Of a DNA stretch of 64,000 bases, positions 27,249-58,250 are shown in pieces. The position numbers were made by a program, and so were the translations under genes. Positions within the stretch are counted from its first letter, which is position 1. The number at the start of each line of letters is the position of its first letter. This stretch comes from an uncultured Lachnospiraceae bacterium. Lineage in GTDB: Bacteria > Bacillota > Clostridia > Lachnospirales > Lachnospiraceae. Under the pieces are notes generated by a model. The model was not told where the DNA came from. It made no database searches and saw nothing but the letters and a program-made list of their open reading frames with translations. Location of the stretch: the NCBI GenBank assembly GCA_947570615.1, contig CANOVJ010000015.1:1-64000 (forward strand), written 5' to 3'.

Positions 27249-27672
27249 AAAAAAACTCCGTCTCCCATACAATCCAGAGACGAAGTTATCCGCGGTTCCA
27301 CTCTTTTTGAGGCCGGTTATGGCCTCCCCTTATGAAAAACGGTCATACCGGCAGTCCATCAAACGCTGTCACACTCCGCGAGTCAGCTTATTGATCCGGA
27401 AAAGCACTCACCGCCTCCTGCGGCTTCGACGTTTTCCTGCCTGCGGCATCACCCTTTTCCGCGCGTAACGTGCGCACACGTATCCCGCTACCGGACGCCC
27501 AACAGGAATCCCTTCACAGAATCTGCTCCCGGATGCACTTCCATCGCCCTCTGTACAGGAATGCTCTCAGCCGGTGACACTCCGTCTCTGAGTACAGGCA
27601 GGACAATTTACTCTTTCCGTTCTTTGCATTTAAAATATGGATGGATTAAAAATCAATCGGAAAATCCTTTAT
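27249..27672 (-). promoter_or_regulatory. T-box leader controlling cysE-cysS
   Basis: Minus-strand leader of about 420 nt. The conserved T-box, AGAGTGGAACCGCGG, lies at 27290-27304 (family consensus AGGGTGGNACCGCG). A terminator follows immediately: stem 27256-27265 with 27276-27285 and a run of seven U. The upstream part (27480-27640) has Stem I features including an AGAG-rich segment; UGC (Cys) at 27535-27537 in GAAGUGCAUCC is my candidate specifier codon, consistent with the cysteine genes below. Uncharged tRNA-Cys would stabilise the antiterminator. Confidence 0.88.
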
Positions 27673-49826: not shown

Positions 49827-50992
49827 TTAGTCTTCTTCTGACAAATTCGTAGCAATACGATAAACTATATTATTGGTACTCCCTTTTGCCACTATATATC
49901 CTGTACCTGTAAGCATTTTAAAATATCTTCGCACTGTCGCGGCAGACTTACCCGTAACCGCTTCTGCTTCTTTAGGAGTGATTTCTCCATGTTCTTCTAT
50001 AAAACTAACCATTGCACTTACTTTATTATATTCTTTTTGCGCCAAAACTCCGCTCATAACTTCGCTTAAACTTCGCTCATTTTTTTGAGCGAAGTTTTCA
50101 TTCTCAATCTCAAACCTCTTATGAATTCTTATTGTAGTAATCATATAAGTTCTGTCCGCATCTGTTTCAAACTCCGGCATGGGCGAACCGTTCCTTTTCA
50201 GTTCGCGCAAAATTTTCGATATGCCCGTTGACTTTTTCTCAGACAAATCAATCTCCTTGAAAAATTCTCCAATCTTGGGATTTCTGTATCTTCCCGCCCT
50301 GATTTTCCCCGCCGCAAACTTCTCCATATCAATATAATGATCCGGTCCCGGAAAATTGATAATCTGAATCTGATCCAAATAAATCCGAATCTCTACCGGC
50401 ACATCCTCTTTGTAGTTTTATCAGAAAATCCTCAAGATATCCCCTGCGTATATGCTCCATAGATGCCCGTTTATTAATACGGTCAACAAATGGTACGGCA
50501 ACAAATTTCTCAAAAAGTTCCGCTATCTCGCTCTGTTTGGCTTCTACCGTAAGTGATGCCGGACGAATCCAATATTTCATTGTGCGGTCTTGCCCTTTCC
50601 CTGCCTCCTTTTTAGAATAAACATCCACAGGTGCCCGATATGGTCCCGCATCGCCCGCTGCACATTTCAGATACACCAGGCTTTTCCCCTGATATTCCAC
50701 AATCTCAATCCTTGGAATATAACGCGGCTCAATTTTGTTGCAGTATTTGGAATATTTTCAGTTGAATATCATCAAGCAATTCGTTCGGTACGCCTACAGG
50801 CGGCAGAATGGGAAGCCCATTTTCTGTCTTTACGCCAATCACAAGATATCCGCCATCTACCCCTGCAATATCGTTTGCATAGCCGCATATGGTGTGCACA
50901 ATTTCTGACGGATTAAAGCCTTCCTTGTATTCTATCCGGTTTTGCTCTACTTTGCGTCCTTTTAACAGAGTATCTATTTTTATTGGAATCAT
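49827..50992 (-). pseudogene. AlbA_2/ATP-binding transcriptional regulator, frameshifted
   Basis: Three frames together rebuild one protein. 50992-50729: AlbA_2 domain (RIEYKEGFNPSEIVHTICGY, GGYLVIGVKTENG). 50700-50329: central part (VYLKCAAGDAGPYRAP, SEIAELFEKFVAVPFVDR). 50402-49827: ATP-binding end (IQIINFPGPDHYI, RNPKIGEFF, KKSTGISKILRELKRNGSP) and a winged helix (GEITPKEAEAVTGKSAATVRRYF). At least two breaks in frame, so probably inactive. Such regulators are frequent in gut Firmicutes and often decay. A separate small piece of a similar gene lies at 49656-49778. Confidence 0.85.
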
Positions 50993-51043
50993 ATAGTCAT
51001 CTCCATTATTGGTATTATGGCAATTGAATTAGGGAAACGGCAT

Positions 51044-51330
51044 TTAAGCCATTGTAAACAATTCCGGATGCTTATGTATATACTCCTGCAGCACATTCCA
51101 CATTGTCTGCCTGTCCTTCGTTTTAAGTGCTTCTTCTATCTTGTGCGATTTTATTTTAGATTGGGCGGCTCATTAATATATACTAAATTTTGTGCATATT
51201 GTTCCACAGGTTTTTCTTTTCCTGAAAGCGAAATCACCTATGCAGACTTTCGTAACCGTCTGCCGGTCAGGAATTGGAATATCTTTTTTTAAGAGATTGC
51301 AGATTGTGCTTTTCTCAACATCCGCAATTT
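51044..51330 (-). pseudogene. Decayed helix-turn-helix protein remnant
   Basis: Minus-strand pieces in different frames that read as one former protein: IADVEKSTICNLLKKDIPIP then DRQTVTKVCIGDF, next ISLSGKEKPVEQYAQNLVYI, and finally HKIEEALKTKDRQTMWNVLQ ending KHPELFTMA. The first piece looks like an XRE-type helix-turn-helix. Two frame breaks are needed. The upstream end merges into the ISL3 fragment. Confidence 0.5.
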
Positions 51331-51605
51331 TCCTTTTGGCGCCAGGAAGCTGAAAGGCTCTGCAAAAGCAGTATGCTGCAATCCGGATTCCGGCAGAACA
51401 TTTTTCTGTTCCTGAGGATAATTTTTGCTTTCTTTCCCATCATTGGGAGATCCTGAGAATTCCATTCATACACACTGTGACGCCTGGAAGACAAATGGCC
51501 GCAATAAGGGCATTTTTCCTCCAGGCGTTCTGATTCTACATATATGAGCAGTTCTTTGTCTGTAATTTCATGTCGGAGATAATGCAAATCAGGATCAGGC
51601 AGGAG
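51315..51605 (-). pseudogene. Truncated ISL3-family transposase, N-terminal zinc-finger part
   Basis: Reads DLHYLRHEITDKELLIYVES, CPYCGHLSSRRHSVYEW, DLPMMGKKAKIILRNRKMFC and RNPDC: the N-terminal Cys4 zinc finger and following strands of ISL3 transposases. The DDE catalytic domain is absent; the frame runs into unrelated sequence and stops at 51315. No terminal inverted repeats could be found. It marks an old insertion sequence in this decayed stretch. Confidence 0.8.
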
Positions 51606-52125: not shown

Positions 52126-52557
52126 TCACTCCCACTTGAAAATAACGATCCCCACGACAGCCACCGCCATCCCGATCGCCTTGCGCCACTCAAAGGGCTG
52201 TTTTTCTACCCCGAACCAGCCCAGCAGCTCGATCACATAGGCCACCGCCAGCTGGGCCACCACGATGAGCATCACCGCCCTTGCAGGCCCCAGCAGATCC
52301 ATGCTCCTGATCACCGTATAGGTGATGAAAGCCCCGATTGCGCCGCCCAGGAGCATGTACTTTGGCTCCACCTTGAAGACCGCGCCCAGAGAGGAGCGGT
52401 CCGTGATCAGCCAGGCGCCCAGACAGACCAGCAGGGCCGTGAACTGAACGAACGCGTTCGCCACCCATATGGTGGAGGATTTGGTGACCTGTGTATTGAA
52501 TACTCCCTGCACGCTCATCAGCGCGCCGGAAATCAGCGCAATAAAAAAACCAATCAT
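52126..52557 (-). CDS. DMT-family transporter (YdcZ/DUF606 type)
   Basis: 143 residues with four to five membrane helices (MIGFFIALISGALMSVQGVF, WVANAFVQFTALLVCLGAWLI, YMLLGGAIGAFITYTVI, AVMLIVVAQLAVAYVIELLG, KAIGMAVAVVGIVIF). The VQGVFNT and GPARAVM motifs match the YdcZ-type drug/metabolite transporters, which usually work as dimers or pairs. The start codon at 52557 lies in the closing helix of a structured leader (52555-52680), suggesting translation control by a ligand or by temperature. Substrate unknown. Confidence 0.87.
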   Translation of the reverse strand: MIGFFIALISGALMSVQGVFNTQVTKSSTIWVANAFVQFTALLVCLGAWLITDRSSLGAVFKVEPKYMLLGGAIGAFITYTVIRSMDLLGPARAVMLIVVAQLAVAYVIELLGWFGVEKQPFEWRKAIGMAVAVVGIVIFKWE

Positions 52558-52680
52558 ATGAATACCATAACCTTTCTACAGCCCGCACTCTGAGGACACG
52601 GGCTGCCCGTTTTCCCACATGAGGACTTTTCCCGCACAACGTGGGCGGGGATTGTCTTCTGCGTTTATGGTATCCATATG
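52555..52680 (-). ncRNA. Structured leader RNA with a 16-bp closing helix over the start codon
   Basis: On the minus strand the leader begins CATATGGATACCATAA (52665-52680) and ends TTATGGTATTCATATG (52555-52570); these pair over 16 positions with one G-U. The 3' strand contains the ATG of the DMT gene. Inside are two hairpins, CCCGC/GCGGG around 52628-52650 and CAGCCCG/CGGGCTG around 52577-52607, and the heptamer GTCCTCA occurs twice. The AAAGG ribosome site lies next to the closing helix. It fits no riboswitch class I can recall. Confidence 0.65.
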
Positions 52681-52754
52681 ACTGGAATAATATTCGCAAC
52701 TGCTGATTCTACAGGGTTGACGCCGCTTCCCATGCGCAGATTCCGGCGGAATCG

Positions 52755-54440
52755 TTACCCTTGCGGCATCTCCCCGTCTGACGCCTCATCGTCTTCCTGC
52801 GCGTCGTCGTCCGTCTCCTCGGATTCCTCCTCCACAGGCTCCTCCAGATACTCCTCCTCAAAAGCCTCCCCCGTCACCTGTTCCATGATCTGCTCGGAGA
52901 GCTCCTTCAGCTTTTCGTTGGCGTCGGCTCCGTTCCAGATCTGGGAGAACACCACCTCCAGCTTTACCCAGAAATTGCTGGTTTCCAGCATCTTGGGCAT
53001 GGAGATGGATCTCTCATACTCCTGCGCAAACTGCCCCAGGGCCTCGTATCCGTAATCCACCCCCCTGGCCGCGGAAACCTTCCCTGTCCTGCCAAAAAGG
53101 ATATCGTTATACTCGGATGTGAGGAAGCAGGCAAAGTCGTTGGCCGCCCGCTTATGCTCCGAATAACCGTTTACCGCCACACAGCCCGTCATGGACAGGG
53201 AACGGCTCTTTTTCTCCGGATCGATATCCGGCGTCAGGGCGATCCCGTAATCATAGGCGAACAGGCCGTCGTCCCCGGCGTGCTCCAGCCTGAACACCGC
53301 GTCCGTGGTGGCGATGGTGAACACCAGCTTTCCCTCCATAAACTCGTTTAAAATGGCGTCGTAGTCGCTCTGGCTGGTCTCAATGGAAAAGAACTGGTTC
53401 AGGGCCTGATACACCCGCATATTTCCGATGGCGTCCAGGTTGTAGATATCGATCCGACCGGTGTCCCACCCGGCGTCGCCGCCCATGTCGATGGCGTCCC
53501 CTACAAAAAAGTAATTGTAAAAAATATCGGTGACGTCCCACTTGAACACGCCCTCCACCTGCTCGGGCGCATCGTAGTTATCCGCAAAGGTCTGAATGTC
53601 CTGGATGGTGGCCGGAAGGATCTCCTGGATCCTGGCCTCGATCTCCTCCTCGGAGAAACGGCTCTGCGGATCCGCCGCCTCTGCAGATTCATCGGACGAA
53701 TCCGCTCCCTCCACGGAAGCGGTGCCCTCGCCGGAGGGATTCTGGCTGGCGGTCTCTGCGCCTGTCCCGTCCTCTGAACCGGAGGGATTCTCTCTCCCGG
53801 CCTGCGCCGCTCCGGAAGAGGAATCGCTCTCCTGCACCGGCTCCGGCGTCTGTCCCGCCTCCAGGTTCGCGTCGTGCTCCTGCTGGGCGGCTTCTCCCTC
53901 CGCCAGATCCGCCTCGGCCTCCAGCTGGTCGGTGGCAATATCCCTTAAATAAGTCTTATTGTACAGAAGCGCGCTGGTCTCAAAATAGAAGGGATAGCCG
54001 ATGATCTTATCCCTGTATGTGGCGGCCTGCAGTCCGGTTCCCATATAGAGCTCGTCCATCACTGCCCCCGCGGGAGGATGAACCTCGTCGGCCAGTCCCG
54101 CCAGAGAAGCCTTTTCCAGGGAATCATGGCTGATCACGTACAGATCCGGCGCATTGCTCTCCAGGGACGCCTGATTGATCTTCTCCAGATACTCCGCCCC
54201 CGACTCAAGCACCGGCACAATCCTCACGTCATGATCCTCGCTGTAGACAACCGCCGCGCTGCTCAAATAAGAAGTAAGCGCTTCATCCGTGTACCACAGA
54301 TAAAGCGTTTCCTTTCCGCCGGCAAAGATACCGCTCTCCTTTTTTTCACTCATCTGCCTGCCGGTTCTGGCAATCCCCACGGTAAACACCGCCGCCAGGG
54401 CGACAAGCCCCACCGCTGTCAGTCGTTTTTTCAGCGTCAT
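52755..54440 (-). CDS. Extracellular sugar-type solute-binding protein with disordered insert
   Basis: 561 residues. An N-terminal hydrophobic segment (LTAVGLVALAAVFTVGIA) lacks a lipobox Cys, so it is probably membrane anchored or cut by ordinary signal peptidase. The body is a MalE-type binding fold: KETLYLWYTDEALTSYLSSA, NAPDLYVISHDSL, IIGYPFYFETSALLYNKTYL, and MEGKLVFTIATTDAVFRLEH. An acidic Ser/Gly/Glu segment of about 90 residues (about 182-272) splits the first lobe, and the last 40 residues are almost purely acidic. No permease or ATPase gene is near. Ligand unknown. Confidence 0.85.
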   Translation of the reverse strand: MTLKKRLTAVGLVALAAVFTVGIARTGRQMSEKKESGIFAGGKETLYLWYTDEALTSYLSSAAVVYSEDHDVRIVPVLESGAEYLEKINQASLESNAPDLYVISHDSLEKASLAGLADEVHPPAGAVMDELYMGTGLQAATYRDKIIGYPFYFETSALLYNKTYLRDIATDQLEAEADLAEGEAAQQEHDANLEAGQTPEPVQESDSSSGAAQAGRENPSGSEDGTGAETASQNPSGEGTASVEGADSSDESAEAADPQSRFSEEEIEARIQEILPATIQDIQTFADNYDAPEQVEGVFKWDVTDIFYNYFFVGDAIDMGGDAGWDTGRIDIYNLDAIGNMRVYQALNQFFSIETSQSDYDAILNEFMEGKLVFTIATTDAVFRLEHAGDDGLFAYDYGIALTPDIDPEKKSRSLSMTGCVAVNGYSEHKRAANDFACFLTSEYNDILFGRTGKVSAARGVDYGYEALGQFAQEYERSISMPKMLETSNFWVKLEVVFSQIWNGADANEKLKELSEQIMEQVTGEAFEEEYLEEPVEEESEETDDDAQEDDEASDGEMPQG

Positions 54441-54936: not shown

Positions 54937-56136
54937 CTATTGCAGCTCCAGAAGACACTCCCGCAGGATCTGCGTCATTTCATCCACATTCTCTTTCCCG
55001 ATCACAAGAGGCGGGATAAAACGGATAATATTGGCTCCCGCATTGATCAGGATCAGCCCCTTTTCCAGGGCGGCGTTAATCACATTGTTTACCGGACTCT
55101 CAAAGACCAGCCCCTGCATCAGGCCCAGCCCTCTTCTTTCTGTGATACAGTCAAACTCCGCCGCAAGGCTCTCCAGCTTTTCCTCCAGATATGCGCCTGT
55201 CTCTTTTACATTATCTATTATATGGTTCTGCTCGAATAAATCAAGCACAATATTGACCGCCGCCGCCGCAAGGGGATTGCCGCCATAGGTGGTGCCGTGG
55301 TCGCCGCTGGTAAGGGAGGCCGCTCCCACCCGCTCCGTCAGCACAAAGGCTCCCACGGGCACACCGCATCCCAGCGCCTTGGCGCAGGTCATGATATCCG
55401 GCTTCACGCCATAGCGCTGCCAGGCGAACATTTCCCCCGTGCGCCCCATACCGCACTGGATCTCGTCCAGGATCAGCAGGATATCTTTTTCCTCGCACAG
55501 GGCCTTTACCTGCCGCAGGAAATCCTCTCTGGCGGGGATAATGCCCCCTTCCCCCTGCACGGTTTCCAGGATAATGGCGCAGGTTTTCTCCGTCACGTTC
55601 GCCAGCACGCTGTCAAAGTCGTTGAGCCGGGCAAAGCGGATGTGGCCGATCATGGGCTCGAAGGCCTCCCGATATTTGGGATTTCCCGTCACGGAGAGGG
55701 CTCCCATGGTGCGCCCGTGAAAGGAATGCTCCATGGCGATGATCTCATGGTCGGTGCAGCTGTCCTTTAAATACGCGTACTTGCGGGCGGCCTTGATGGC
55801 TCCTTCCACCGCCTCGGCCCCGCTGTTGGTGAAAAAGACCCGATCCAGACCGGAGACCTCTTTGATCTTTTTTGCCGCCTCAATGGCAGGCACGTTATAA
55901 TAGTAGTTGGAGGTATGGATCACCTTATCGATCTGGGCCTTCAGGGCGTCGTTGTAGCTCTTATTATTATACCCCAGCGCAAACACGGCGATACCCGCGC
56001 AGAAATCCAGATATTTTTTGCCTTCAATGTCGTAGAGATACACCCCGTCGCCTTTGTCCAGAACCACCTGGTAGCGGTTGTAGGTGTGAAGCAGGGCCTT
56101 CTCAGCCTCCTTGATGTATGCTTTCATTGTTTCCAT
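54937..56136 (-). CDS. argD: Acetylornithine aminotransferase
   Basis: 399 residues. PLP enzyme that converts N-acetylglutamate semialdehyde to N-acetylornithine. Landmarks: FCAGIAVFALGYNN, FFTNSGAEAVEGAIKAARK, EHSFHGRTMGALSVTG, LILDEIQCGMGRTGEMFAW, and the PLP Lys in CAKALGCGVPVGAF. Start with GAGAGG upstream. It follows argB by about 110 bp on the same strand, and is part of the arginine cluster whose first gene is argC. Confidence 0.96.
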   Translation of the reverse strand: METMKAYIKEAEKALLHTYNRYQVVLDKGDGVYLYDIEGKKYLDFCAGIAVFALGYNNKSYNDALKAQIDKVIHTSNYYYNVPAIEAAKKIKEVSGLDRVFFTNSGAEAVEGAIKAARKYAYLKDSCTDHEIIAMEHSFHGRTMGALSVTGNPKYREAFEPMIGHIRFARLNDFDSVLANVTEKTCAIILETVQGEGGIIPAREDFLRQVKALCEEKDILLILDEIQCGMGRTGEMFAWQRYGVKPDIMTCAKALGCGVPVGAFVLTERVGAASLTSGDHGTTYGGNPLAAAAVNIVLDLFEQNHIIDNVKETGAYLEEKLESLAAEFDCITERRGLGLMQGLVFESPVNNVINAALEKGLILINAGANIIRFIPPLVIGKENVDEMTQILRECLLELQ

Positions 56137-58110: not shown

Positions 58111-58250
58111 AGCCAGGCATTTATCCGGCAGGTGTGCCCCTTCCTGCATTTCTTCTGACCCAAAGGGTGCGTAGCAGCACAATCTCTACTTCAAATAAAT
58201 TCCCAGCTTTATGATTATATGTAATTTATAAACATATTATAGCGTGCTTT

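Follow-up and report, generated by a model that had tools for sequence, protein, structure and literature searches.

The leader of ydcZ in the window (the whole 64,000-nucleotide stretch of Lachnospiraceae DNA that was analysed) is most likely not a riboswitch. Comparison of its sequence with those of its relatives points instead to a forespore promoter nested in a silencer of read-through RNA, an arrangement that we consider probable. In this model, RNA running in from the argC-J-B-D cluster, which here is followed by an SBP gene, would hold both arms of a long helix and fold into a hairpin; with the ydcZ start codon buried in it, the read-through RNA would remain untranslated. In the developing spore, polymerase carrying sigma-F and/or sigma-G would start inside the hairpin, downstream of its 5′ arm, and would produce an mRNA with a short leader that lacks the anti-start arm and has a more open start codon. 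Without silencing, read-through from the arg genes would lead to production of the transporter in vegetative cells. ydcZ, as a transporter gene of the spore stage, would be shielded from read-through of the arg operon.

A conserved helix encloses the ydcZ start codon

ydcZ (52126..52557, minus strand) encodes a 143-aa transporter that is of the YdcZ type, as the initial annotation had proposed (DMT_YdcZ, PF04657, E 4e-30). That annotation described a riboswitch-like leader closed by a helix of 16 positions with one G-U pair, with the start codon in its 3′ strand and the SD sequence adjoining, and the fold bears the description out: within the 126 nt at 52555-52680 (-), CAUAUGGAUACCAUAA pairs with UUAUGGUAUUCAUAUG over 16 positions, one of them G-U, and the MFE of -52.3 kcal/mol (z -5.49) was equalled by none of 200 shuffles. 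A further 5 bp, CCAGU/AUUGG, extend the helix outward to 21 bp, with positions 52685-52665 paired to 52570-52550; this longer helix reaches into codon 3 of ydcZ and has a z of -6.44 when the flanks are folded too. The 5′ arm, CCAGTCATATGGATACCATAA (52665..52685, -), is the anti-start arm, and the 3′ arm, TTATGGTATTCATATGATTGG (52550..52570, -), holds the start codon (52557-52555) together with codons 2-3. The SD-like AAAGG (52571..52575, -) adjoins the helix on its loop side, and a T7 tract in codons 3-5 (52543..52549, -) lies immediately 3′ of the stem. Both GC hairpins and both GTCCTCA copies of the initial annotation are present in the inner region (52571..52664, -).

Comparison with known riboswitch classes by eye had given no fit, and covariance searches agree with this: no Rfam family scored above its gathering score on the window's leader, where the best sub-threshold match at a relaxed threshold was sucA (E 0.65), and no family fits the leaders of four relatives. 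At another locus, L092:6008-6183 (+), there is a sub-threshold match to Clostridiales-1 RNA (27.3 bits, E 0.037).

YdcZ orthologues were taken from congeners, 80 genome contigs and further regions, mostly labelled Lachnospiraceae, with some labelled just bacterium, Bacillota or Clostridiales. Extraction gave 116 leaders, 99 of them distinct (80 from L034-L113, the window's own and 18 from other genomes); the leaders of L033, L121 and L122 lay outside the scripted extraction and were inspected separately. Of the 99 distinct leaders, 91 were assigned a 5′ arm able to pair with the AUG and codons 2-3, with arm positions set by hand in ten (the window, L011, L013, L024, L041, L047, L053, L082, L099 and L114), and the other eight were counted as without the element. 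All eight lower pairs are present in 75 of the 99 and at least seven in 88, with L024 retaining just five. Among the 91 leaders with an arm, the third base of codon 2 forms AU in 69, GC in 13 and GU in seven, with two mismatches, and the wobble base of the Gly codon forms UA in 44, AU in 31, GU in eight and GC in two, with six mismatches.

The arms also change together. When changes were placed by the Fitch method on a FastTree tree of ydcZ codons 12-140, with ties broken arbitrarily, nine of ten changes at gene position 5 coincided on a branch with an arm change that preserved a standard pair, as did 6/11 at position 8 (the Gly codon wobble base), 2/3 at position 3 and the single change at position 4; positions that are not partners shared at most five branches. 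Paired cells make up 99.3% of alignment A1, which comprises 35 of 41 listed leaders (L039, L044, L057, L071, L087 and L101 were omitted), compared with 91.1% after shuffling and no more than 42.5% after sliding. Its covariation score and its number of cells changed on both sides exceed those of all 500 shuffles. Shuffles reach A1's count of pairs with both sides changed in 17/500 cases and its number of pair types in 463/500, and these two measures therefore add little. In the upper helix, which lies outside the gene, the mean duplex energy in 75 leaders is -10.25 with their own arms and -6.37 with swapped arms, and none of 5000 permutations was as good. The helix is thus conserved in orthologous leaders and has compensatory changes, the two properties that the initial annotation had suggested looking for, and we are close to certain that it is a conserved RNA element.

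A covariance model of the element, R1, matches 51 of 299 family genomes. Its best 30 matches sit at the ydcZ start, 29 directly and one (L152) by coordinates. Three of the matched genomes have no YdcZ, in G278 the match is on a different contig from its YdcZ, and R1 fails on the window's own leader with its long insert.

A candidate forespore promoter is nested in the leader

Sequence conservation among the leaders begins sharply at G(A/C)ATAA ahead of the arm (no position farther upstream exceeds 0.22 bits) and resumes as GG..A...T in the upper arm. These blocks beside the 5′ arm resemble the promoters of forespore sigma-F/G. Of the 99 leaders, 86 match the pattern GHATA-N13-16-GGNNANNNT, which mostly begins 10 nt ahead of the arm; the controls gave a mean of 1.5 and a maximum of four in 20 shuffles, two on the reverse strand and one in the region 180 nt farther upstream. 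Among the eight leaders that lack the helix, L103, L112, L113 and L119 keep the pattern. Outside the leaders, the 80 L034-L113 loci contain 85 same-strand matches, a background of 0.024 per 180 nt, and the upstream regions of the SBP genes contain none (0/78).

In the window, the putative -35 element is GAATA (52691..52695, -) and the putative -10 element, after a 15-nt spacer, is GGATACCATA (52666..52675, -). By the convention of 8 nt past the last T of the -10, transcription would be expected to start at 52659 (-). The window's own motif is a weak match. The sigma-F consensus is GYATA / GGNNANANTR, and its strict form GYATA-GGNNANANTR is met by just 13/99 leaders; GAATA as a -35 would therefore be a family variant. 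The leaders of spoIIR, a sigma-F gene, provide a positive control: six of 12 from the family match a slightly looser pattern, four of these with GAATA, and the other six lack the expected motif. Among published forespore promoters, csfB is given with GTATA and GGGGAGGCTA (PMC4383634). For C. difficile, a conserved G before the -10 is described for sigma-F and an A after the -10 for sigma-G (PMC3789822), and for B. subtilis a spacer of 14 nt is reported for sigG and of 15 nt for most sigma-F promoters (PMC5942855). The motif stands at a near-fixed position, and the promoter that it would form is presumably used, from about the expected start.

Two other explanations of the conserved blocks were considered and rejected. 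A housekeeping promoter would require a -35 element, and there is none, with nothing conserved upstream of the GAATAA block. An upstream mini-ORF starting from (A/T)TGAAT, as read in the genus, does not keep its start codon, with T at -11 in 38 of 94 aligned leaders.

YdcZ tracks forespore-type sigma factors

PF04657 is present in 177 of the 299 family genomes. Matches to the sigF model, which catches sigG too, fall into strong (E < 1e-70, 200 genomes) and weak (99 genomes) groups; this threshold is our own, taken from the bimodal list, and the curated sigF cut-off is passed by 61/299 genomes. A strong match to a forespore-type sigma factor is found in 172 of the 177 genomes with YdcZ and 28 of the 122 without (Fisher 3e-45, kinship ignored). 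The five exceptions comprise weak PF04657 matches in G045, G215 and G238 and a YdcZ in a frame of ~300 aa in G084 and G109. YdcZ therefore tracks forespore-type sigma factors when kinship is ignored, and a sporulation role of the transporter would be consistent with this.

The window's own genome has two sigF/G-like matches (E 4e-94 and 4.5e-93), one of them a SigG (L197) above the curated NF006071 cut-off, and a SASP. SpoIIR (PF09551), found in 147/299 family genomes, was rejected as a spore marker for its weak link to the element (31 of the 51 R1-matched genomes), the sigF/G search being clearer. No PF09551 match was found in the own genome (G000) or in G264, though both have sigF/sigG-like sigmas; divergent SpoIIR, an assembly gap or decaying sporulation could each account for this.

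The anti-start arm lies upstream of the expected transcription start

The genes upstream of ydcZ are co-directional with it. The nearest, an SBP_bac_8 gene encoding 561 aa (52755..54440, -), stops 69 nt before the 5′ arm and is one possible source of read-through; the scan of the window called no terminator-like site between it and the hairpin. Beyond it lies argD (54937..56136, -; TIGR00707 above cut-off), the end of the argC-J-B-D cluster and the conserved upstream neighbour. The window's argD, argB, argJ and argC each score above the curated NCBIfam cut-off. SBP and argD are both found upstream of ydcZ in 78 of the 80 L034-L113 loci. Among the 57 loci of a second set, duplicates included, argB and argD were found without SBP in 22 and SBP alone in 21, where flanks of 1.5 kb may stop short of argD.

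Elsewhere in the window, a skipping-rope RNA (RF02924, 55.5 bits) is located between argB and argJ (58120-58199, -), and a T-box leader (RF00230) at 27273-27633 (-) barely exceeds its threshold of 93 with 94.4 bits. Behind ydcZ, at 49830-51587 (-), short ORFs contain an ISL3-type Zn ribbon (PF14690), AlbA_2 (PF04326) and HATPase_c_4 (PF13749), which are mobile or accessory domains.

Because the anti-start arm is contained in the promoter spacer and -10, a transcript begun ~8 nt past the -10, as assumed here, would lack it. If the conserved blocks are a forespore promoter, which they fit, the 5′ arm lies upstream of the expected start, and the helix would then be a silencer of read-through RNA rather than a switch. 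Openness of the start codon was predicted for the 80 leaders with both helix and motif (four more had no helix, and 15 of the 99 were excluded). The predicted median openness of the AUG rises from 0.001 in read-through RNA to 0.66 in promoter RNA, and the promoter-RNA median stays between 0.66 and 0.68 across start offsets of 6-11. The AUG is predicted to be more open in promoter RNA in 77/80 leaders, and to go from below 0.2 to above 0.5 in 53/80; in the window, the predicted promoter transcript opens it to 0.33 only. The SD region is not opened, with predicted medians of 0.43 in read-through RNA and 0.40 in promoter RNA. The leader of the predicted promoter mRNA has a median length of 25 nt in the 80 leaders and is 102 nt long in the window. 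In vivo, read-through RNA would reach ydcZ and be silenced.

Of the second set, 51 leaders are distinct; the set includes five pairs of duplicates, and one of its leaders also occurs in the first set. A still looser pattern matches 40 of the 51 (the first match was taken, and some are evident decoys), and 28 of those 40 have an RBS region in which 8 nt or more pair with sequence lying 5′ to the expected start. In L156, L158 and L174 the arm covers the SD. Six of seven leaders picked by eye have a terminator-like hairpin instead of the helix (L103, L112, L113, L119, L161 and L166), and in these six, the expected start leaves 5-12 nt of the hairpin's 5′ arm upstream of it. In L121, which belongs to a different family of the order (61% protein identity), a GTATA-led arm complements, by eye, the stretch that precedes the start codon.

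Alternative explanations of the helix

The long stem, preceded by an A-rich stretch and directly followed by a U tract, could also be read as an intrinsic terminator or attenuator that serves the upstream genes and overlaps with the start of ydcZ. GGWTTTTT follows the stem in nearly all of the 94 leaders with an MFE arm, and some relatives have terminator-like hairpins at the same place. However, the loops are large, the stem is A/U-rich and the scan called no terminator-like site in the window. The T tract also occurs in each of the eight leaders that lack the hairpin; it may therefore stem from the GFFI/GFLI codons, and for this reason we rejected termination as the only function. Overall we regard a terminator as an unlikely explanation of the element, and termination could act alongside translational silencing.

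A start-codon helix is a usual expression platform of a riboswitch, in which binding of a ligand or protein to the inner domain opens or closes the helix. The GG and A..T positions of the upper arm are conserved, and the lack of an Rfam match leaves room for a new class. However, the inner region is conserved neither in length, nor in sequence, nor in its hairpins: the relatives have inner sequences other than the two hairpins of the window, and no conserved ligand-binding (aptamer) domain was seen in the inner region of the aligned leaders. Furthermore, the conserved nucleotides of the upper arm coincide with the -10 at a near-fixed distance from GHATA, and the -10/GHATA block persists in the same four of the eight helix-less leaders. 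We therefore judge a gated translational switch highly improbable. Temperature sensing, which the initial annotation offered beside ligand binding, would sit poorly with helices of 18-21 bp, as the 21-bp helix is predicted to be very stable and is probably too stable for an RNA thermometer. What stands of that proposal is the conserved start-codon helix, which matches no Rfam family and shows no sign of mobility; the switching by ligand or temperature is not supported.

Translational coupling, in which ribosomes finishing the upstream gene would melt the helix and ydcZ would be translated in step with SBP or argD, has very little probability. The upstream stop is 4 nt from the arm in L012, L084, L085, L087, L095, L098 and L107, and, with corrected arms, in L011, L013 and L099. 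However, the distance from stop to arm ranges from 4 to >100 nt, and is 69 nt in the window, mostly beyond the probable reach of a terminating ribosome, and GAATAA is kept even where it is not the stop; coupling was rejected for these too variable distances. Near-perfect terminal inverted repeats in one genome could reflect chance or a mobile (MITE-like) repeat, the latter a possibility that the initial annotation had raised, but the probability of either is negligible, as the element is single-copy in its own genome, blastn against 299 family genomes found only that genome and one 26-bp partial match, and the element keeps an orthologous position with co-varying arms across leaders.

Relation to known systems

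A nested promoter with a read-through silencer is known in kind. B. subtilis sigG (spoIIIG) likewise has a forespore promoter behind another operon and a proposed hairpin of 20+ bp, which is said to block translation of read-through RNA and cannot form in the promoter RNA (PMC5942855). There, the gene encodes a sigma factor and follows the spoIIGA-sigE operon, whereas the gene here is that of a transporter behind arg genes, and its AUG and codons 2-3 are the partners of the lower arm. In phage T4, the RBS of I-TevI and other late genes is described as hidden in early or middle read-through RNA, with the late promoter positioned such that its transcripts are unable to fold in this way (PMC2988022); these are phage late promoters without sporulation, and the structure hides an RBS rather than coding codons. 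Translational riboswitches share with the ydcZ leader a start codon in a switchable-looking helix, but the leader has no conserved aptamer that we could see and no Rfam match.

The sigG leaders of the family (L197-L211) extend the B. subtilis proposal in part. By eye, the promoter spacer or -10 pairs with the RBS in 6/12 MFE folds (L199, L202, L204, L207, L208 and L211); the remaining six lack the expected pairing, which the own genome's L197 has at most partly. SigG identity was confirmed for six of the 12 (L197, L199, L202, L204, L207 and L211), and the genes of the other leaders are taken to be SigG from their N-terminal motif. Unlike the ydcZ leaders, to which they are unrelated in sequence, these Lachnospiraceae sigG leaders pair the SD and not codons 1-3.

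What would be new here is the gene, the arm made of coding codons, and the exchange among start-codon, SD and terminator forms. Among the open-access titles searched we found neither the ydcZ case, nor a coding-codon arm, nor such an exchange, and no link between YdcZ and a riboswitch. Searches there for DUF606 with a leader returned nothing beyond a transporter-classification paper, and for YdcZ with sporulation nothing beyond an Exiguobacterium annotation paper.

The analysis carries a caution, as covarying start-codon helices may silence read-through RNA, hide a promoter and pass as riboswitches. What looked like an orphan riboswitch becomes a developmental circuit that can be tested, and the leader offers a second, widely conserved candidate for the logic of sigG. 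More tentatively, and with somewhat less than even confidence, we suggest that YdcZ is an unrecognised forespore transporter of Lachnospiraceae that ends an arginine cluster and is kept silent outside the spore by whichever hairpin is at hand: one with its arm in the promoter spacer, co-evolving with coding codons, one shifted to the SD, or a terminator interrupted by the start site. Conservation would then apply to the constraint, a developmental insulation from read-through, and not to the structure, and the transporter might be tied to movement of arginine or ornithine in sporulation. A transporter of unassigned substrate would thereby be linked to sporulation in a major gut family.
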